DNA of 64,000 nucleotides from Persephonella sp. GTDB lineage: Bacteria > Aquificota > Aquificia > Aquificales > Hydrogenothermaceae. The notes under the pieces were generated by a model that saw only the letters and a program-made list of their open reading frames with translations, made no database searches and was not told where the DNA came from. Of the stretch, positions 15,215 to 30,107 are shown piece by piece. The stretch is taken from assembly GCF_027023985.1 (NCBI RefSeq), contig NZ_JALVTW010000032.1:1-64000 (forward strand), given 5' to 3'. The stretch's first letter is position 1. Each line of letters begins with the position of its first letter. The translations under genes were made by a program, and so were the position numbers.

Positions 15215-15575
15215 ACTCATTGAGAAAATCAAGAATCAACAAATCAAGATTTTAGAACTGGAAAGAGAACTCTTTTATCTCAAAGAAGTAAAAGCAGATA
15301 AAGAAAAAGAGAAAAAAGACATAGAAGCAACAGTATGGAATGAGGTTGTATTTGACAAAGAACTCAAAAATGAAGCACAAAGAAAAGCAAGATATCAACA
15401 GAAATTGGAAGAATGGGACGCTTATTTAGGAGTTTTAGACAGGATTGCAGAACTGGAGAAAAAAATCTCAGACCTTATCTATCAAATCAAAAAAGAAAAC
15501 ATAGAGCTTGATTATCTCAAAAGGCTCTATGAGATAGAAAAACTTAAAAAAGAAAAAGAGGAGGCAGTGTCATGA
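15195..15575 (+). CDS. Coiled-coil phage protein preceding RecT
   Basis: A 126-residue, almost wholly helical protein (IKNQQIKILELERELFYLKEVKADKEKEKKD...). AAGGAGG lies upstream of the paired ATG codons 15195 and 15198. It overlaps the recT start by 4 nt. The position upstream of recT could suit a recombination partner such as a small SSB-binding or Gam-like factor, but the sequence is only a coiled coil and no family is recognised. Confidence 0.6.
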   Translation: MMEYIYELIEKIKNQQIKILELERELFYLKEVKADKEKEKKDIEATVWNEVVFDKELKNEAQRKARYQQKLEEWDAYLGVLDRIAELEKKISDLIYQIKKENIELDYLKRLYEIEKLKKEKEEAVS

Positions 15576-16744
15576 ACGAGAAAGCAATAGAACTAAAGGT
15601 AAAAAACTTTTTAGAATCATTCAAAAACAAAGACATCTATAACTATGCTATCACACTTAGTCCAGTATTTAAAGAACCTGAAAGATACATAGACTACCGT
15701 AAACAACTTGCACAGCTTCTTATAGCAGTTCCCAAACTTACCGAATACGACCCAAAAAGTCTGATATTTGCAACAGCTAAAGCTTATGAGCAAGGATACT
15801 CCTTTGACCCCAAAGATGCAGAAGCTTATTTCATTCCTTATGGAAAAGAAATCCAGTTCCAGAAAGGATACAGAGGCATTCTCAAAGACCTGATGAAAAG
15901 ACCCGATGTTGTTGATGTTATAGCAGATGTAGTTTATGAAGATGATGATATAGAAATAGACAAAGACCCACACGGTAGATTAATCCTGAAAAGACACAAG
16001 TCTAACCCATTCAAAAGAAGCAAAGACAAGATAATAGGTGCTTACGCATTCGTTTACTACAAAGTAGATGGGAAGATAGTTTCAAACGGGGTAGCCATGT
16101 CAGCAGAAGAAATAGAAGAAGATTTTAGAAGTCTTTCCAAAGCGGATAAATCCATGGGCAAAAACTCCTTCTGGGAAAAATGGAAAGCAGACATGTATAA
16201 AAAGACCGTCATTAAGCAGCTCAGGAAAATCCTACCACCACTACCAGAAGAAAAGATAGATTTCTATCATGAAACAAGCAGAAAAGAAGAGCCCGAAATA
16301 TCAGATGAGAGAAAAGAACTTATAAAAGCATTCAACAAAGCATATACAGAGTCAGGTTTAACAGCTCAGGAACTCAAAAGCATTATTTACACAAGATACT
16401 TTGTGAATGAACCGGCTGAGCTTACAGATGAACAACTTACAGAAATAACACAGTTGCTAAGAGAGAAAGGAAAGAGCTTATTGGAAGCAACTGTATTAAT
16501 CGGAGCAAAAGAGCAGAAAGAACTGGAAGAACTATTTGTAGAGAAGCAGCTCAACGACGAACAGCAGGCAAAAGTCTATGAATATCTCGGAATAGAGGAT
16601 GACAAAATCCCAAGCTATGAAGAATACACATGGATAAAGAACTTCCTCTCTCAGAATGAAAGAGAGCAAATCCTTGCTGCAATAGGCTGGAAAGAGAAAA
16701 AGATAGACCAGAAAACTCTTGAAGAAACATTAGAAACAGTTTAA
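15572..16744 (+). CDS. recT: RecT-family single-strand annealing protein
   Basis: A 390-residue protein whose first about 240 residues match RecT: YDPKSLIFATAKAYEQGYSF, DAEAYFIPYGKEIQFQKGYRG, GAYAFVYYKVDGK, MSAEEIEEDF and WKADMYKKTVIKQLRKILP. The C-terminal about 150 residues (ELIKAFNKAYTESGLTAQELKSIIY...) are an extra helical region of unknown role. RecT proteins anneal complementary strands and promote recombination of phage ends. No separate RecE-type exonuclease is obvious in the operon. The stop is followed by a strong inverted repeat (16756-16809). Confidence 0.9.
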   Translation: MNEKAIELKVKNFLESFKNKDIYNYAITLSPVFKEPERYIDYRKQLAQLLIAVPKLTEYDPKSLIFATAKAYEQGYSFDPKDAEAYFIPYGKEIQFQKGYRGILKDLMKRPDVVDVIADVVYEDDDIEIDKDPHGRLILKRHKSNPFKRSKDKIIGAYAFVYYKVDGKIVSNGVAMSAEEIEEDFRSLSKADKSMGKNSFWEKWKADMYKKTVIKQLRKILPPLPEEKIDFYHETSRKEEPEISDERKELIKAFNKAYTESGLTAQELKSIIYTRYFVNEPAELTDEQLTEITQLLREKGKSLLEATVLIGAKEQKELEELFVEKQLNDEQQAKVYEYLGIEDDKIPSYEEYTWIKNFLSQNEREQILAAIGWKEKKIDQKTLEETLETV

Positions 16745-16831: not shown

Positions 16832-17269
16832 ATGAACGAACTTTGGGAGTTATACAAAGAGATACATGAAAACTGGAAAGGCTACATAATCGTTGTAGCA
16901 AGAAATAACAGAATAGAACCAGACGATTTACTTGACGCAGTCATAGACTACCTAATTGATTACAAAGTAGACAACATAAAGCAACTAATACACAAAAAAG
17001 CCTATGAGCTTAGATACAAGAAGGAATTACCAATATCTAAATTCTACATAGAAGATGAAAAGCAAGAAGAAAAACTTTTTGAAGTGCTTCAGTTTTACAA
17101 CTATGAGGAACCACAGGAACAAATAGACTGGTTTTCAGGTCTACCAGAAGAGCTGAGAACCTATCTACTTTCCAGAGTTCGCATTGAAAAAACTCTCCCT
17201 ATCCAAGAAAGGGTGAGGTTTAGACAAAAACTTAGAGAAGCACAAAAACTATTAGGAGGACAACAATGA
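16832..17269 (+). CDS. Unknown phage protein, sigma-like helical
   Basis: A 145-residue protein with AAAAGGAGGAGAA upstream of the ATG. The sequence (MNELWELYKEIHENWKGYIIVVARNNRIEPDDLLDAVIDYLIDY...) has the rhythm of sigma region 2-like helices (EPDDLLDAV). The C-terminal part (LPIQERVRFRQKLREAQKLL) could be a second helical bundle. It overlaps the next gene by 4 nt. A regulator role is only a guess. Confidence 0.55.
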   Translation: MNELWELYKEIHENWKGYIIVVARNNRIEPDDLLDAVIDYLIDYKVDNIKQLIHKKAYELRYKKELPISKFYIEDEKQEEKLFEVLQFYNYEEPQEQIDWFSGLPEELRTYLLSRVRIEKTLPIQERVRFRQKLREAQKLLGGQQ

Positions 17270-17979
17270 TTAAAAAAGAAGAAGCAACAATAACACTTGC
17301 AACAACAACAGACCTATTAGGGTCAAGTCCTTCTACAGACCCGGCTAAAGAATTAAAAAAACAAGAAGCGAAAAAGGAAATAAAAAGACTTGAAAAGGCT
17401 CTGAATAGAAGAAGCACAACAGCAGAAGAAGCAGAGATAATAGAACAGAGAATAGCTCAGATATTGGAAGACCTTGAAGAACATGGAATAAGTCTTGACG
17501 ATGAAAGACAGATAACTATTTTTCCAAGAGATGAGCAAGGTAGACTTTCAATACTTCACTATCAGATATTAGGCTTACTCAAGGAAACAGCCTATAACTT
17601 CAAAAGAGAAAGAAATATCAAGAACCTGATTAGTCGTTATGTAAAAATTGAGCCAAGAATTATTCCAATGAAAAGAGATGGAGAATATATCTATCAGCCC
17701 GATGACTTGCTTACAAGACCACTAAGGGCTATGACTCCTCAAGGGCCAATAGTTAGTCTTGCAACAAGCGAACTACTACATCCAGAAATAGAGATTAGTT
17801 TCAACGTCAGAGTTGCAAATTTAGAAGGAATGAACTTGCAAAAGATCTTAGATCTCTTTGAAGTAGCAGAGGAATGGGGAGGATTGTTACAGTGGCGAAC
17901 TGGAGGATACGGTAGGTTTGAAATAAAAGAAGTGGCTACATCTAAAAAAAATAAGAAGAAATTAGCTGCGGCTAAGTAA
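17266..17979 (+). CDS. Phage protein with RAMP-like C-terminus
   Basis: A 237-residue protein. The first about 85 residues are charged and helical (KELKKQEAKKEIKRLEKALN). From about residue 85 there is a compact beta-rich domain with a central RPLRAMTPQGPIVSLATSE motif (near residue 150) and a C-terminal EWGGLLQWRTGGYGRFEI motif (near 205-222). I associate these two motifs with a widespread, uncharacterised siphophage family, and the Gly-rich GGYGRF end with RAMP (Cas7/Cas6-like RRM) proteins. No catalytic residues are evident. The gene is followed without a gap by the G-phased array (17965-18191), its last five codons already falling within the array phase. A nucleic-acid-binding role is inferred. 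Confidence 0.65.
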   Translation: MIKKEEATITLATTTDLLGSSPSTDPAKELKKQEAKKEIKRLEKALNRRSTTAEEAEIIEQRIAQILEDLEEHGISLDDERQITIFPRDEQGRLSILHYQILGLLKETAYNFKRERNIKNLISRYVKIEPRIIPMKRDGEYIYQPDDLLTRPLRAMTPQGPIVSLATSELLHPEIEISFNVRVANLEGMNLQKILDLFEVAEEWGGLLQWRTGGYGRFEIKEVATSKKNKKKLAAAK

Positions 17980-18191
17980 AGATTAGATAGGCGCAGTGGA
18001 GCTATGGTCGAGTATTGAAAAGTATGGTTATGGTGAAGCCAAGAGCTGTTAGGCACTGTCTTGGTAAAGTTCTGAATAGCATCGCAGGGCCAGGGCTGAG
18101 CTTTGCTGTGAGGGGTTTAGTGTGGGTTATGTATCGAGTTGTAATGCCAAGGCGGCGTCCAGTAATGCAGAGCAAAGTATAGTTTTGTCGC
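17965..18191 (+). ncRNA. G-phased 5-nt array (candidate structural RNA)
   Basis: Counting by hand, G falls at 17965, 17971, 17976 ... 18182, 18187: 44 consecutive G residues 5 nt apart, with seven 6-nt steps (units starting 17965, 18001, 18027, 18058, 18089, 18120, 18146). Mean spacing is about 5.16 nt. The base after each G is C or T in 37 units, A in 7 and never G; the other three positions vary freely. There is no sustained open frame on the plus strand. It lies in the rightward transcription unit and ends before a hairpin and terminator. The unit is neither a CRISPR (no constant repeat) nor codon-periodic. Confidence 0.7.
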
Positions 18192-18193
18192 AA

Positions 18194-18212
18194 TACCCTC
18201 ATCAAACGGGTA
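18194..18212 (+). other. Short hairpin after the G-phased array
   Basis: TACCC (18194-18198) and GGGTA (18208-18212) form a 5-bp stem with a 9-nt loop starting three bases after the last phased unit ends. It may mark the 3' boundary of a processed RNA. It is weak alone; position makes it notable. Confidence 0.4.
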
Positions 18213-18247
18213 AGTTTCAAGGGTAAAGCGTGATTAAGCTATACAAT

Positions 18248-18264
18248 GGGGCTCTTGCCCCTTT
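18248..18264 (+). terminator. Rho-independent terminator after the array
   Basis: GGGGC-TCTT-GCCCC (18248-18261) is followed by TTTATT. It closes the transcription unit containing the RAMP-like gene and the G-phased array, just before the ribosome-binding site AAGGAGG of the next small gene. Confidence 0.75.
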
Positions 18265-19064: not shown

Positions 19065-19257
19065 ATGCACAGATAACCTCAAAGATGACAACTTTTATTT
19101 AGAAGATAGTATTATAAAAGAAATAGCAAACTTTATTATTGGGGTATCTCATGAAAAAGGCCGTGATTTATGCGAGGGTATCAACAGACCAAGCAACACA
19201 GAAAGAAACACCAATCAGCTCACAGATAAGCGAATGCTTCAAGTATGCAGAAAATAA
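19057..19257 (+). CDS. Possible small protein overlapping the recombinase start
   Basis: A 66-codon frame starts 8 nt inside the YopX gene and runs 107 nt into the recombinase gene in another frame. The N-terminal about 30 residues (MFKCTDNLKDDNFYLEDSIIKEIANFII) have protein-like composition, while the tail is probably just antiphase coding. It may be a small translated leader that couples the recombinase to the operon, or no gene at all. Confidence 0.25.
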   Translation: MFKCTDNLKDDNFYLEDSIIKEIANFIIGVSHEKGRDLCEGINRPSNTERNTNQLTDKRMLQVCRK

Positions 19258-20707
19258 AGGATTTACTGTTGTTCAAGTATTCACAGATGAAGGAATAAGC
19301 GGGACAACAGACAAAAGACCCGCCTTTCAGCAAATGTTAGATTACATACAGAATAACGATATTCAAGCTATCATTACCTTTGACACATCAAGATTATTCA
19401 GAAATATTAAGCATAAAATGAACTATAAAGAACTCTTTGATAAGTTAGGAGTAGAAATACACTATGCCTCAAACCCCTTCTTATCCGGAAATCCTAATAA
19501 TGACGAAGAAAGGTTGGCAAGATTTTGGGCAGAAGGTGGAGCTATGCTTTTTGATGCATGGTATCCAATCTTTTGCTCTGTTCATATAAAAAGAGGGAAT
19601 AGAGAAAATGCAAAACAGGGGTTTTGGAACGGCAGACCCTTACCTATCGGATATAAAACTGTAAAGGTCAAATACGGGAACACAACAAAATCAAAGATAA
19701 TAAAAGCAGAAGAAGAAGCCCATATATATTTCAGAATTTTATCTCTGTTTAAGCAAGGATTTGGAACAAAAGAAATAGCTAAAAGATTAAATGAAGAAGG
19801 GCTAACAAACAGAGGAAAACCTTGGAAATACCAATCTATTCTAAAACTCCTGAAAAATGAATTATACAAAGGTGTATTATACGGTGGAGGAGAAAAGTTT
19901 CAGCATGAGCATTTAAGATACATTTCGGATGAAGAATTTGAAGAAATTCAACAGGAACTGTCCAAACGGATTAAACACAGCCGAGGGAAGATGAAATCAA
20001 ACCTCTATTTTATCGGCATTTTAAAGTGTGGTAGATGCGGTTCTGCAATGGTCACAGAAACAGCAAAAGGGAATAGATACCACTACTATGTATGCAGCAA
20101 AAGAAGAAAACATAACCAGTGCGACCAGAAGAGATTACCAGCAGATAAAGTTGATAATTATCTGTTGGATATAGTTTTAAACAAAATATTAAACGAAAAA
20201 GTTCTACTTCAAATTAAAAAAGCCATAGAGGAAGAAATAAACACTCATATAAAGCAGATAAAACAAGAACGAGAAAGCATTAAAAAAGCAATTCAGGCTA
20301 TAGATACTAAATTAAACAATATCCTGAAAGCCATAGAAAATGGACTGATAGATTTCAATGATGACGAAATAATAGAAAGAAGAAGGCAATTAAAAGAAGA
20401 AAAGAAAAACCTTGAAAGCAAATTAAAGATTTTAGAACACCAAGCCAACAAGAACTGGGTAGAGATAAATATAGACCTGCAGGAATTTAAAAACATAATC
20501 ATTGACTATTACAAAACTGGGAATGCCAAGCAGATTAGAAGACAGTTAGAAAAACTGATTGATTATATTGAATATGACAACGATGAATTCAGGATTTTTT
20601 ATAATCTGGACATGTTCAAGTTCGCCCAACCTTTTCTTTTGGTGGAGGCGGGGGGAATCGAACCCCCGTCCGAGAACGGCCGTTGCTCGGGCTTTCTACA
20701 GGCTTAG
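19151..20707 (+). CDS. int: Large serine recombinase (integrase)
   Basis: About 518 residues from ATG 19151. The N-terminal resolvase domain contains YARVSTDQ with the catalytic serine (residue about 11) and the TFDTSRLFRN arginine motif. A recombinase domain (FGTKEIAKRLNEEGLTNRGKPW) follows, then a zinc ribbon (KCGRCG near residue 295, YVCSKRRKHNQC) and a long coiled coil (residues about 355-455). The last about 24 codons, from 20637, are read from the antisense of the tmRNA 3' end, so the stop codon is supplied by the attachment region. It would catalyse integration into the tmRNA gene and, with a directionality factor, excision. Confidence 0.92.
   Translation: MKKAVIYARVSTDQATQKETPISSQISECFKYAENKGFTVVQVFTDEGISGTTDKRPAFQQMLDYIQNNDIQAIITFDTSRLFRNIKHKMNYKELFDKLGVEIHYASNPFLSGNPNNDEERLARFWAEGGAMLFDAWYPIFCSVHIKRGNRENAKQGFWNGRPLPIGYKTVKVKYGNTTKSKIIKAEEEAHIYFRILSLFKQGFGTKEIAKRLNEEGLTNRGKPWKYQSILKLLKNELYKGVLYGGGEKFQHEHLRYISDEEFEEIQQELSKRIKHSRGKMKSNLYFIGILKCGRCGSAMVTETAKGNRYHYYVCSKRRKHNQCDQKRLPADKVDNYLLDIVLNKILNEKVLLQIKKAIEEEINTHIKQIKQERESIKKAIQAIDTKLNNILKAIENGLIDFNDDEIIERRRQLKEEKKNLESKLKILEHQANKNWVEINIDLQEFKNIIIDYYKTGNAKQIRRQLEKLIDYIEYDNDEFRIFYNLDMFKFAQPFLLVEAGGIEPPSENGRCSGFLQA
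20640..20707. other. Probable attachment region (tmRNA 3' end / recombinase 3' end)
   Basis: The phage recombinase gene runs through the tmRNA T-arm and acceptor end and stops at 20707 within it. The tmRNA retains a full acceptor stem and encoded CCA, so the crossover lies within or just left of this segment, at or near 20640. The exact core cannot be set because the other attachment site is outside the window. Confidence 0.6.
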
Positions 20708-25221: not shown

Positions 25222-25863
25222 TTAAACTGCTGCTTCTTCACCTAATTCTTCTGCAAGGGCATCATAGTCTGACAGGATAAACTCCAGTGCAAGCTCACAA
25301 ACATCTTGATAAAAAGGTGTTTCTGCCATGTCCTTTGCAGATAGAAGATAAATAGTTCCCCAGTTTGCGAGATGTTCTTCTAAAAACTGTTTTTGGATTT
25401 TTCTTAGTCTTTCTGCTTCTTTCTGATTTCCTTTCTGTAAAGCTTCTAATTCTTCTTTTGCAAGGGTCATCATAAATTCCATTTCTACCGCAATATGGTC
25501 TGGTGATAAGGCTCTTGTTTCATTAAGGTCAATTGAGTATCCATGTTCTCTATAAAAAACAAGTGTCGGGTTTGTTATGGAAGCATCTATATGCCCCTCA
25601 TCATTCATAAATACTGACTCATAGGGATATACATTAAGGAGAAATACAGTTGTGAAATCTACATTTAAATCTTCTTCAATCAATTGTTTAATATCCTTTT
25701 CATTAAACTTGTTCCATTCTTTTGTTTTAGGGAACAAATCAAGTAGTTCCGGTGTCTCTTTTATTTTTCTTAATGTTTGTTCATCTATTTCCTCAATAAA
25801 TAGTCTTGATAACAGACCATACATATTTATTCGTGCTTGCAACTCCTGAATCTTCTCTTCCAT
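25222..25863 (-). CDS. TorD/DmsD-family molybdoenzyme chaperone
   Basis: About 213 residues from ATG 25863, chosen because of GAGGTGG 6 nt upstream. An all-helical protein with the TorD-type YPYESVFMNDEG and ALSPDHIAVEMEFMMTLAKEE (His in EPDH-like position) segments near residues 80-125. These chaperones bind the Tat signal of a molybdoenzyme until cofactor is inserted. It follows the catalytic gene (25915-29205), whose signal it probably guards; the type II enzyme upstream (33671) may share it. Confidence 0.85.
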   Translation of the reverse strand: MEEKIQELQARINMYGLLSRLFIEEIDEQTLRKIKETPELLDLFPKTKEWNKFNEKDIKQLIEEDLNVDFTTVFLLNVYPYESVFMNDEGHIDASITNPTLVFYREHGYSIDLNETRALSPDHIAVEMEFMMTLAKEELEALQKGNQKEAERLRKIQKQFLEEHLANWGTIYLLSAKDMAETPFYQDVCELALEFILSDYDALAEELGEEAAV

Positions 25864-25887
25864 AATTACCACCTCTAAAAATAAAAT

Positions 25888-25903
25888 GGGGGCATCTGCC
25901 CCC
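25888..25903 (-). terminator. Terminator-like stem-loop between molybdoenzyme and chaperone genes
   Basis: GGGGGC-AGAT-GCCCCC on the minus strand followed by ATTTTATTTTTAG, located 12 nt after the molybdoenzyme stop. Because the TorD and ferredoxin genes follow directly, it may act as an attenuator that reduces their expression relative to the catalytic subunit. Confidence 0.6.
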
Positions 25904-25914
25904 TATTCAAGTTT

Positions 25915-28900
25915 CTATTCTTCAGATTGATTATGTTCGTATCCTGGCATTCTGTATGCTTTATCAGTATGTGGATACCATGGTCTTGGGAACCATTTTG
26001 GTCTTCTCAGTCCGTTTGGTCCAGGTGCTGGTCTTGTAAGCTGGTCTCTCCATGCTTGATAGACTTTAAATGTCTTGTCTGTATCAACAACAACATCACC
26101 AATTCTATCTTCTGGACCTGCTTTTTCTATAAGAACTTTCTTATGCCAGCACTGCATACCTGATAATGGATCTGGGTTTGGTGGGAATACTGCGTTTTGC
26201 CATACACCTGTAGTTCCTTTCCACCATACCTCTTTAATATCTTTGTTAAATTCTGGATATGGCCATTTAAGCCATTTTTCACTATGTTCTTTTTCAATTT
26301 CTCTTGGAATAGTTCCTTCTTGGGTTCTCATTTTCCATGTATTGCCTTCTCTCTTGATATCAACTCTTACAGAGCCAAATGTCATTATACCGAGAGGTTG
26401 ATCGAAGCCTTCTACATTTACAAAGTTTCTTACTCTCCATCTACCTTGGTGGTGGGAGCAAGCAACAACACCTGGTCTTACAGCTTGAGTTGGCATTGCC
26501 ATACCAACAAAATATCCTGTTTCTATTCCGGTTAGAGTATCGACCACTCTGAGCTTAATAGCATCTCCTCTCCTAATACCTAATCTTTTAGCATCTGCTT
26601 CATTGATCCATACAGGGTTGTGGTTTTGTGATATTTCCATAAGCCATTTTGCGTTTACAGACCTTGTGTGAATATTGTAAGGAAGTCTGTAAATTGGGTT
26701 TAAACAGAATGCGTTTTCTTCATTCATAAATGAGTGGTGAACTTGAGAAAGGATATGTATCCATTTTCTCTTATGTTCTTCTTTGTATGGATATATTGGT
26801 ATTGCATATTCAGGCCAGTGGAACTCTACAAGTGTTTTTGAGTAGTATTCAAGTAGTCCTGTGGCTGTATGGAAACCTTTTAGAAGTTTTCCATCTTTCA
26901 TTACACCGATAACGTGTCTTTCTGAGTGGTATTTATCTCCGCCGTGTCCTTTAAGGTATACAGTTCCTTCTATTGGGTCTATCTCAAGGGCACTTCTTGG
27001 TATCCATTTTCCTTTGTATTTATATGCATCTTTTTCGGGATCATAAGGAATTTCTCTTTCCATTACGTAATAAACATTGGTTTCTTCTGTCCATGCACCT
27101 CTGTCTCTCATATATTCGTAAGGAGTAATACCCATTTTTTCACATACTTTCTTAAGACCTGGTATTGTGCTAAATGCAGCGTTATACCACTCTTCAACTG
27201 TTACAGGGTGTCCTGGATTTTTCTTAGATTCCCAGTATTGTCTAATTCCAAGTGAACCATCTGGGTCTATTGCCCATGCCAGATTAATCCAGAATTCATC
27301 GTCTTCCCAAACTTCACCAAGTCCTGCTTTTTTATGTGCTTCCAGAGTTGCTTTCCATGGTTCTTTAGGTTTCCATCCCATCTTTTGAAGGGCAACTCTG
27401 AGAACTGGTTGTCTGAATGCTGTCCATCTTTCTGGTTTTGTTTCTGCTGTTTGGTTATCGTGTCTTTCTCCTGCAAGACCTACAGGCAAGATATAGTCAA
27501 CAAACCAGCTTGTTTCTGACCATGTTGGAGAAAGATGAACAGTTAATCCAAATTTGTTTTCATCTGTTAAGGTTTGTATCCATCTAAATCCGTCTGGGTT
27601 TGTCCAGACAGGGTTATACATTCTTCCAAACCATACTTCTATTTTATCCGGTATTTTAAGTCCTCTTTGTTCCCATTTCTTTCTCCATTCATCATCAGAG
27701 AGGAGGTGAGGAAGTATTATACTCATTTCATAAGCAGCTATAGGCCATTCAGGTGGGAATAATAGCTCACTCCATGCATCTACAGGTTTAGGCTTGTCTT
27801 TGAGAGTAGAAGCTCCACCATTGTTTCCAACACCCAATCCGTGCCAGTGGTGCCATCCTGTCCCACCAACACTACCGATAGAACCTGTAAGAACGAGGAG
27901 GAATTCTCCTGTTCTACCTGCATTCATCCAACCACCACGGTTTCCTGCAGCTTGTGCTCTCCAGTAATAAGAAGTAATTCTATCTCCTGCCCAGAGTATC
28001 ATTTCATAAAGTTTTTCCAATCTATCAAGTGGAACTCTTGATTCTTTTGCCGCCCATTCAAATGTGTATGGAGCATAAAGTTCTTTAAGAACTGCTATGA
28101 AATCGTCAAATGTTTCACCTTCAGGTAACTTAGAGATTAATCCTTCATTTTTAAGATAGTTTAGATACTCTTTATCTTTTATAAATGTTTTCCAGTTAAC
28201 CCATCTTTCAACAAATTTTCTATTGTATTTATCTTCTTGGAGCAATCTGTTTGCCATTGCTAAGAATATAGCACCCTCTGTTCCAGGCCACACAGGAAGC
28301 CATAAATCAGCCATTCCAGCAGAGTTAGAAAGCCTTGGGTCTAAAACAACCAGTTTCGCACCTTTTGCCCTTGCATCTGCAATGTATCCTGCGTGCTGTT
28401 GATAGTAGTGTCCAGCATCCGCTGCGTGCGAAGATGAGAGGAGTATAAGTCTTGAGTTTGCAAAGTCTGGAGAAGTTCTATCATCACCAGACCATGTGAT
28501 TGAACCAAGACGTCCACCTGAAGAACAGAAGTTTGTGTGGGAGTTATGGTAATCTCCTCCCCATGTCCATACGACTCTTGGCTGAAAACCATTATAGTTT
28601 GGTCTTCCAACGTGATACATTATCATTTTCTTGGCATATTCATCACCATTTTTTGCTTTCTTTATAACTTCTCTCATTCTTTTTCCTATAGTTTCAAGAG
28701 CCTCTTCCCAGGTTGTTCTTACCCATTTACCTTCTCCTCTTTTGGAACCTGGGGCTCTTTTCAGTGGAAATGGGATTCTATCTGGGTCATACATTTGAGA
28801 AAGAGCCGCATATCCTTTACCACAGTTTCTTCCCCTTGAGCCTGAGTGGAAAGGATTACCCATAAATTTCCTTACTCTAAGACTATCTTTGTCAACCCAT

Positions 28901-29205
28901 GCTGTAAGACCACAGGCAGCCTCACAGTTACTACATACAGTAGGAATAATCATATAATTAATAAGTTTTACACCGTTTCTTAAAGCACCACCATGTTTTT
29001 TCCAGTAGTCCCCATCAGGTTCTTTCCAGTCATTCCATTTATCAAATGGTGGATAATAATCTAATCTTGATGGTGTAAAAGTAAGTTCAGAATTTGTTTC
29101 TGCCTGTGCGGCAGGATTCATTTTTCCAACAACACCTTTAGCTAAAGCTGCTCCACCGATTGTTGCAGCAATTCCTTTTATAAAGTTTCTTCTTGTGGTC
29201 CTCAT
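25915..29205 (-). CDS. Large Tat-exported molybdopterin oxidoreductase, catalytic subunit
   Basis: A 1096-residue protein with a Tat signal (MRTTRRNFIKGIAATIGGAA). The first [4Fe-4S] binding motif is CSNCEAACGL, with the fourth Cys in GRNCGKGY (near residue 128). The NFCSSGG segment around residue 226 is a candidate Cys molybdenum ligand, unlike the Asp-type enzyme encoded at 33671. The C-terminus holds the molybdopterin-binding MopB_CT region. With the Fe-S (30109) and NrfD (29223) genes it makes a periplasmic complex of the psr/ttr/soe type. Candidate substrates are tetrathionate, polysulfide, sulfite or selenate/arsenate; sequence alone does not decide. Confidence 0.82.
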   Translation of the reverse strand: MRTTRRNFIKGIAATIGGAALAKGVVGKMNPAAQAETNSELTFTPSRLDYYPPFDKWNDWKEPDGDYWKKHGGALRNGVKLINYMIIPTVCSNCEAACGLTAWVDKDSLRVRKFMGNPFHSGSRGRNCGKGYAALSQMYDPDRIPFPLKRAPGSKRGEGKWVRTTWEEALETIGKRMREVIKKAKNGDEYAKKMIMYHVGRPNYNGFQPRVVWTWGGDYHNSHTNFCSSGGRLGSITWSGDDRTSPDFANSRLILLSSSHAADAGHYYQQHAGYIADARAKGAKLVVLDPRLSNSAGMADLWLPVWPGTEGAIFLAMANRLLQEDKYNRKFVERWVNWKTFIKDKEYLNYLKNEGLISKLPEGETFDDFIAVLKELYAPYTFEWAAKESRVPLDRLEKLYEMILWAGDRITSYYWRAQAAGNRGGWMNAGRTGEFLLVLTGSIGSVGGTGWHHWHGLGVGNNGGASTLKDKPKPVDAWSELLFPPEWPIAAYEMSIILPHLLSDDEWRKKWEQRGLKIPDKIEVWFGRMYNPVWTNPDGFRWIQTLTDENKFGLTVHLSPTWSETSWFVDYILPVGLAGERHDNQTAETKPERWTAFRQPVLRVALQKMGWKPKEPWKATLEAHKKAGLGEVWEDDEFWINLAWAIDPDGSLGIRQYWESKKNPGHPVTVEEWYNAAFSTIPGLKKVCEKMGITPYEYMRDRGAWTEETNVYYVMEREIPYDPEKDAYKYKGKWIPRSALEIDPIEGTVYLKGHGGDKYHSERHVIGVMKDGKLLKGFHTATGLLEYYSKTLVEFHWPEYAIPIYPYKEEHKRKWIHILSQVHHSFMNEENAFCLNPIYRLPYNIHTRSVNAKWLMEISQNHNPVWINEADAKRLGIRRGDAIKLRVVDTLTGIETGYFVGMAMPTQAVRPGVVACSHHQGRWRVRNFVNVEGFDQPLGIMTFGSVRVDIKREGNTWKMRTQEGTIPREIEKEHSEKWLKWPYPEFNKDIKEVWWKGTTGVWQNAVFPPNPDPLSGMQCWHKKVLIEKAGPEDRIGDVVVDTDKTFKVYQAWRDQLTRPAPGPNGLRRPKWFPRPWYPHTDKAYRMPGYEHNQSEE

Positions 29206-29222
29206 TTATACTACCCTCCTAA

Positions 29223-30107
29223 TTAGCTTAATGGTAAACATTGTGGAGCTATAAGCCATGCATGTTTTATAAGCCACAATCCAATTAATGCAAAAATTGC
29301 AGCTATCCACGCATATCTGTATTTTCTAAACTCATTTGCAATTCCAACTAAAACAATTGGAATAATGAATGCAAATAACATTCCAAGCCAGAAGAATGGA
29401 GCAACTTCACCAAAGGCAAGAACTTTAATTACTTCGTAAGAGAACTCACTGTGCATTTTAGCAAATACAAGTTCTCCTATGAACATTGCTGCAGCAAGGA
29501 ATGTGCTTCCAAGGAGGATATAACCAAGTTCTCTCCTAATCTCCTCTTTTAAAATATGTCCATAAATTGCATCTATTATCAGGTATGCTGCAGAACCGGC
29601 TATCATTGCACTGAGGAGCATAGAAATCATTTCTGCTGGGAATACCCATACTTCCCTTGCAGTTGCTTCTCCCATAATGCCGGCTGTGTATATTGTTGCG
29701 AAGAATGCAAGTATAAATCCTGGGATTGCTACTCTATCAAATAATTTTTTATTTCCTGTAGCCCATGCCCAGAAAGAAATCAAAAGGACTATAACAAATG
29801 CAGAAACAACCCATGCACCGAGAGTTACTGCTGATGTAAAGTGTGGATGGAAGAATATATGCCAGAATCTAAACATATGATGAAGGTCTAAAACAGTTAC
29901 AAGGAGCGTAATACCGATAAATATAATTCCTAAAATTGGAAGCCATTTTCTAAAGAAATTGTCTTGCTCAGGATATCTTCTAATGAAATAAAATCCAAGT
30001 AAGAATGAACCTGTTGCTATACTTTTTGCCCACATGTTTGTTGAAACGAGCCATCCCCAAACTATTTTAGGGAGAGCCACATCAAAGGTTACTTCTGCCC
30101 CTATCAT
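29223..30107 (-). CDS. NrfD/PsrC-family membrane subunit
   Basis: A 294-residue polytopic protein with eight hydrophobic helices. The N-terminus (VALPKIVWGWLVSTNMWAKSIATGSFLLG) and LLVTVLDLHHMFRFWHIFFHPH match NrfD/PsrC-type quinone-reactive subunits. It sits between the Fe-S and catalytic subunit genes (spacing 1 nt and 17 nt). It would exchange electrons between the quinone pool and the periplasmic Fe-S subunit, without heme. Confidence 0.85.
   Translation of the reverse strand: MIGAEVTFDVALPKIVWGWLVSTNMWAKSIATGSFLLGFYFIRRYPEQDNFFRKWLPILGIIFIGITLLVTVLDLHHMFRFWHIFFHPHFTSAVTLGAWVVSAFVIVLLISFWAWATGNKKLFDRVAIPGFILAFFATIYTAGIMGEATAREVWVFPAEMISMLLSAMIAGSAAYLIIDAIYGHILKEEIRRELGYILLGSTFLAAAMFIGELVFAKMHSEFSYEVIKVLAFGEVAPFFWLGMLFAFIIPIVLVGIANEFRKYRYAWIAAIFALIGLWLIKHAWLIAPQCLPLS

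Follow-up and report, generated by a model that had tools for sequence, protein, structure and literature searches.

A long G-phased array beside a Vipr-like RAMP gene in a Persephonella prophage, probably a divergent form of VIPR

Background

The closest described counterpart of the locus presented here is VIPR (Viral Interference Programmable Repeat), a system made known in 2026 that may be ancestral to CRISPR (bioRxiv 2026.04.26.720920, PMC13142463). According to this preprint, VIPR associates phage-encoded RAMP proteins, named Vipr, with vrRNAs made of alternating GGY/NN pentanucleotides (YNNGG), and represses competing phages; type II is represented by Escherichia phage SUSP1 and a Pseudomonas fulva prophage. 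The published vrRNAs keep a strict 5-nt period over 9-16 repeats, form guides of ~100 nt and end, past the repeats, in a structured 3' tail (PMC13142463). Double-stranded DNA is read through pairing of the NN bases, one target base being skipped per repeat, and for SUSP1 Vipr, a protein of solved structure, the binding of pentanucleotide-repeat RNA, the gapped pairing with dsDNA and the silencing have been demonstrated (PMC13142463). VIPR loci are typically accompanied by an accessory vap gene, and the same source speaks of seven types, and also of related consensuses and staggered arrays (PMC13142463).

The locus analysed here lies in a stretch of 64 kb of Persephonella DNA, called the window in what follows. 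Its system can also be compared with Cas7 of type VII CRISPR and with Csm3/Csm4 of type III, which share the RAMP fold and are lined up on a guide RNA in regular steps. It differs from them by a step of ~5.17 nt instead of 6, by the absence of CRISPR repeats and of other cas genes, and by an RNA specificity that resides in a phased G. Single-stranded RNA is likewise read one base at a time, at regular intervals, by TRAP (trp RNA-binding attenuation protein), whose sites are (G/U)AG, and by the coat protein of tobacco mosaic virus. The folds of these two proteins differ from the RAMP fold, the arrays of the window type are much longer, and the G of the array is followed by C, T or A, in contrast to the TRAP sites.

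The array and the adjoining RAMP gene

On the plus strand of the window, 44 consecutive Gs succeed one another at steps of 5 or 6 nt from 17965 to 18187, within an array that spans 17965..18191 and constitutes the longest such G chain of the 64 kb. Six-nucleotide steps account for 7 of the 43, and the base that follows the phased G is C or T in 37 units, A in seven and G in none; a recount gave figures identical to those of the initial annotation. The first three Gs fall in the last codons of the RAMP gene and the other 41 lie beyond its stop codon (17977-17979), so that the array proper begins at 17981. Homologous arrays adjoin homologous genes elsewhere, and the tract is presumed to specify a guide RNA similar to a vrRNA. 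It contains no constant repeat of the CRISPR repeat-spacer type, only the phased G, as had been stated at the outset, and a search of the tract against Rfam gave no match.

The tract is rich in G (76 of 227 bases), a composition that could by itself suggest a chance pattern or a side effect. The comparison with shuffled sequence that had been proposed along with the original observation speaks clearly against this reading: when these 227 bases were shuffled 5,000 times with their dinucleotides preserved, the best G chain reached 23, against 44 in the actual sequence. Throughout the window, the other bases and step pairs tested produced chains of at most 28, the longest of which consist of A or T. 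The same pattern is moreover found again beside homologues in many phyla, and the chance reading, to which a practically negligible probability is assigned, is for this reason already refuted. The array pattern is real.

The gene directly upstream (17266..17979, plus strand) encodes a protein of 237 aa which ends in a glycine-rich loop, QWRTGGYGRF, corresponding to the conserved C-terminus QWRN(S/A)GxGRF of its family. Searches of this protein in Pfam, PHROGs and NCBIfam returned nothing significant. Its AlphaFold model, with a mean pLDDT of 91.4, was matched by Foldseek first to Cas7 of type VII CRISPR (E=6e-8) and then to Cmr and Csm chains. A profile of the family compared with the PDB retrieved Cas7 (2e-4), Csm4 (2e-3) and the SUSP1 Vipr protein 36pp (0.043), and the hhalign comparison between the family and SUSP1 Vipr extended over nearly the full length with a probability of 90 and E=1.4e-6. 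Judged by its modelled fold and its profile matches, the protein is a RAMP of the Cas7 family, and profile homology makes it a distant relative of SUSP1 Vipr; the RAMP-like character that the initial annotation had attributed to it is thereby confirmed. The start of the RAMP gene is overlapped by a gene of 145 aa belonging to the same operon (16832..17269, plus strand), to which no function is assigned and which is not conserved at other loci. Further upstream, a gene on the same strand (15572..16744) encodes a RecT-family ssDNA-annealing protein (Pfam RecT 2.3e-27, phrog_148) of a phage early recombination module.

Distribution of the array and of its gene

More than 300 RAMP relatives were found in all. 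The window protein used as a tblastn query matched Hydrogenobaculum phage 1, human-gut phages and one of 60 related genomes, and an IMG/VR search with this single protein found none. With an alignment of the tblastn relatives as query, IMG/VR yielded 255 relatives, the best 80 of which were kept, and the GTDB genomes yielded 71 relatives distributed in 70 loci. In most of about 145 loci, an array is situated directly upstream or downstream of the RAMP gene and on its strand, and this linkage spans many phyla. The period-5 tract that the initial annotation had suggested looking for beside homologues is indeed present at most of the homologous loci read. For 73 of the 80 loci, the array is read in the same direction as the gene; the remaining seven seem to have arrays with C as the usual neighbour of G, so that both strands score.

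The linkage is equally visible in the reverse direction. A search of IMG/VR based on the pattern only, with no protein involved, detected 92 stretches, 80 of which are accompanied by the RAMP gene; several of the others are arrays located at a locus edge, or contig pieces with the gene elsewhere on the contig. Among 61 related genomes, the pattern with at most two mismatches is present in exactly two, which are the two carrying the RAMP gene. The loci belong to early regions of temperate phages, with repressors, SSB, RecT and YqaJ as neighbours; apart from such general phage early genes, no conserved accessory gene was found in the homologous loci.

The longest unbroken G chains comprise 120, 119 and 109 units (loci L014, L067 and L015, respectively), and a scan tolerating lapses extends the range to 636 units in L204 and, in L145, to 700 units covering 3.6 kb. 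The latter, from a Clostridia MAG of sheep colon, is a single array (L145:3373-6971) in which 664 of the 700 units have the G; it starts just past the RAMP gene, ends at a strong hairpin with a T-run and contains imperfectly repeated internal blocks. It gives an idea of the size that such arrays can attain. On two IMG/VR contigs of ~73 kb (L190/L177 and L204/L184), the phages have several long G-phased arrays that are separate from one another, tens of kb apart on the contig or at different loci, with rearranged blocks in common. A close RAMP homologue with no clear array nearby was noticed in a MAG labelled Lokiarchaeota (L146), on a contig attributed to an Asgard archaeon, possibly owing to a binning error or a virus.

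Fine structure and evolution of the arrays

Measured on 65 arrays of the family, each with 40 units or more, the period corresponds to 31/6 nt (5.167 +/- 0.019). Steps of 6 nt return at roughly every sixth unit in these arrays, with a spacing variance of 3.4 versus 27 for random placement. The 5-nt unit (GHNNN) consists of the G, then C, A or T and hardly ever G, followed by three variable bases; the 6-nt unit has the form GCAANG and is followed by G.

The phased G is under purifying selection. Between sibling arrays it differs in 2.3% of cases and the extra G of the 6-nt unit in 2.7%, against 7-11% for the other positions; the phased G is thus 3-4 times less variable, and the changes at position 2 are mainly between C and T. 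Blocks of the arrays are rearranged between related phages, which could offer a way to study the gain and loss of guides without a CRISPR adaptation machinery.

The arrays themselves fold no better than their shuffles, no ribozyme was detected with Rfam in 14 long-array loci, and intrinsic terminators 3' of the arrays show no clear enrichment (6 of 210, versus 1-5 in controls). Some arrays are nevertheless followed by a structured RNA. Directly after the arrays of L014 (5213-5291) and L220 (474-552), a common RNA of 79 nt keeps a structure of 25 pairs, with eight double changes and no pair broken; one of its stems is almost wholly different in sequence between the two phages and still fully paired. 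Array tails as a whole are only slightly more structured than controls. In the window, a possible structured 3' tail of presumptive role extends over 18194..18261 on the plus strand (fold z = -2.2), with a first hairpin whose arms are 18194-18199 and 18220-18225 and a second one, of GGGGC, with arms at 18248-18252 and 18257-18261.

Search for targets and for a code

A grid of decoding rules, combining position pairs and skip lengths, was compared with 2.2 Mb of sequence, and no rule surpassed shuffled guides. Target matches that seemed striking at an early stage were rejected, being inside the shuffle range. Against 151 genomes, the window guides gave a single match with three mismatches, which is the chance level, and no natural target; exact IMG/VR searches with three family guides returned 1, 1 and 0 matches, again chance numbers, and a 9-unit guide match in L253 was dropped, as it does not extend. 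A known SUSP1 guide, when searched in IMG/VR, found nothing either, and this database is therefore not a fair target test. Peptides encoded by the triplets were discarded as well: tblastn did no better with them than with shuffled ones, and stop-free runs were no longer than in shuffled sequence.

Stop triplets are rarer than expected at unit positions 3-5. Furthermore, base 5 of a unit and base 3 of the next unit behave like neighbours in DNA, a signal taken as a lead only, since a control with ordinary DNA shows part of the effect. The stop-triplet depletion and the neighbour-base statistic are a hint of three target bases per unit, and a decoding rule for the array is weakly supported.

Relation to VIPR and proposed mechanism

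The comparison with VIPR was extended to the SUSP1 locus itself, which was located and whose Vipr gene product is identical to PDB 36pp; its four vrRNAs, scanned in the same way as the family arrays, display a G-phase of the same kind. Both systems combine a phage-encoded single-domain RAMP possessing a C-terminal glycine-rich loop with tandem G-anchored pentanucleotide RNA repeats that flank the gene on its strand. The unit is GHNNN in the window and the family, whereas the preprint gives GGYNN (PMC13142463). The first G of GGY has largely been lost: G occupies position 5 in 14% of the 5-nt units of the window and 25% in the family, versus 58-92% in three of the four SUSP1 guides. A 6-nt unit occurs about every sixth unit in the window clade and is almost absent in SUSP1. 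The tracts run on without a break, through 44 units in the window and as many as 700 at other loci, in contrast to the guides of 9-16 units described in the preprint, and the window clade has no conserved accessory gene, whereas vap is typical of VIPR and not strictly defining (PMC13142463). Its protein homology, its architecture and its probable logic place the system with VIPR as a divergent form; it is filed as a variant because its arrays have neither the GGY/NN consensus nor the length of 9-16 units. A large clade with 31/6-nt arrays, found from raw sequence, would be added to VIPR; the clade may already be among the seven types of the preprint.

The tract very probably specifies the guide RNA of a VIPR-like system carried by a prophage, and, by analogy with SUSP1, the function of this prophage-encoded RNA-guided system would most likely be the silencing of competing phage DNA. 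The elements of this explanation that come from the present analysis are the array with its statistics, its association with the adjoining gene, the RAMP fold predicted for the protein and the purifying selection acting on the G. The tract would be transcribed with the Vipr-like RAMP gene or just after it. RAMP subunits would then coat the RNA, one per unit of ~5 nt, each gripping the invariant G and the next base, mostly a pyrimidine. The three variable bases of each unit would be left free to read DNA, at a rate of about 3 bp per unit. The complex may bind matching dsDNA of rival phages or prophages and block its transcription, as SUSP1 VIPR does. Finally, the regular 6-nt unit (31/6 nt) would compensate for the geometry of the filament, and this regularity leads to a direct structural prediction of about six subunits per turn.

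A more far-reaching version of the guide hypothesis, with a code and a particle that both differ from those of the published VIPRs, can be put forward tentatively and is rather unlikely. The RAMP proteins would assemble on the RNA into continuous filaments that comprise tens to hundreds of subunits, with six subunits to each turn of 31 nt, and the GH-spaced units would show three contiguous target bases; a single transcript could then read long stretches of the genes of several competing phages. Arrays that are very long and continuous, reaching 700 units, with variable positions that match no known DNA beyond chance here, would also suit a structural or decoy RNA, a long RAMP-coated filament acting as a ruler, a store or an anti-CRISPR decoy and whose variable bases hold no guide information. 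The coat protein of tobacco mosaic virus, which coats G-phased RNA, would be the model for it. The probability of such a role is low: the blocks are reshuffled between sibling phages, as guides would be, stop triplets are depleted at positions 3-5, and the remote homologue that was tested uses its repeats as guides (PMC13142463).

Much less probable still is a DNA element with a G at each half helical turn, an alternative already raised by the initial annotation; a protein that coats DNA would bind it, and it might serve, for instance, in the recombination or packaging of a phage. The appeal of such an element comes from the period of 31/6 nt, which is half of 10.33 bp, and from the RecT encoded nearby. 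It is not favoured, because the arrays have the orientation of the gene (73 of 80 loci; the others are G-C arrays, for which both strands score), a tail shows compensatory changes of the RNA type, and the published relative acts via RNA; the Cas7-type RNA-binding fold modelled for the protein points in the same direction. The original proposal, that of an RNA scaffold and a RAMP-like reader whose footprint measures 5 nt, is supported by the fold, the linkage between array and protein, and SUSP1 Vipr, and neither of the two outcomes named in advance as refuting it occurred. Two points are corrected: the step is 31/6 nt with a regular 6-nt unit, and the role of the RNA probably goes beyond that of a scaffold, because the variable bases are guides in VIPR.

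Other genes of the window

Two further regions of the window were inspected by eye. A large serine-recombinase gene with motifs of the resolvase and zinc-ribbon type, at 19139-20707, probably encodes the integrase at the prophage edge. On the minus strand, 25222-30107 resembles a molybdopterin oxidoreductase operon comprising a large subunit, a chaperone and a membrane subunit, possibly involved in sulfur respiration.
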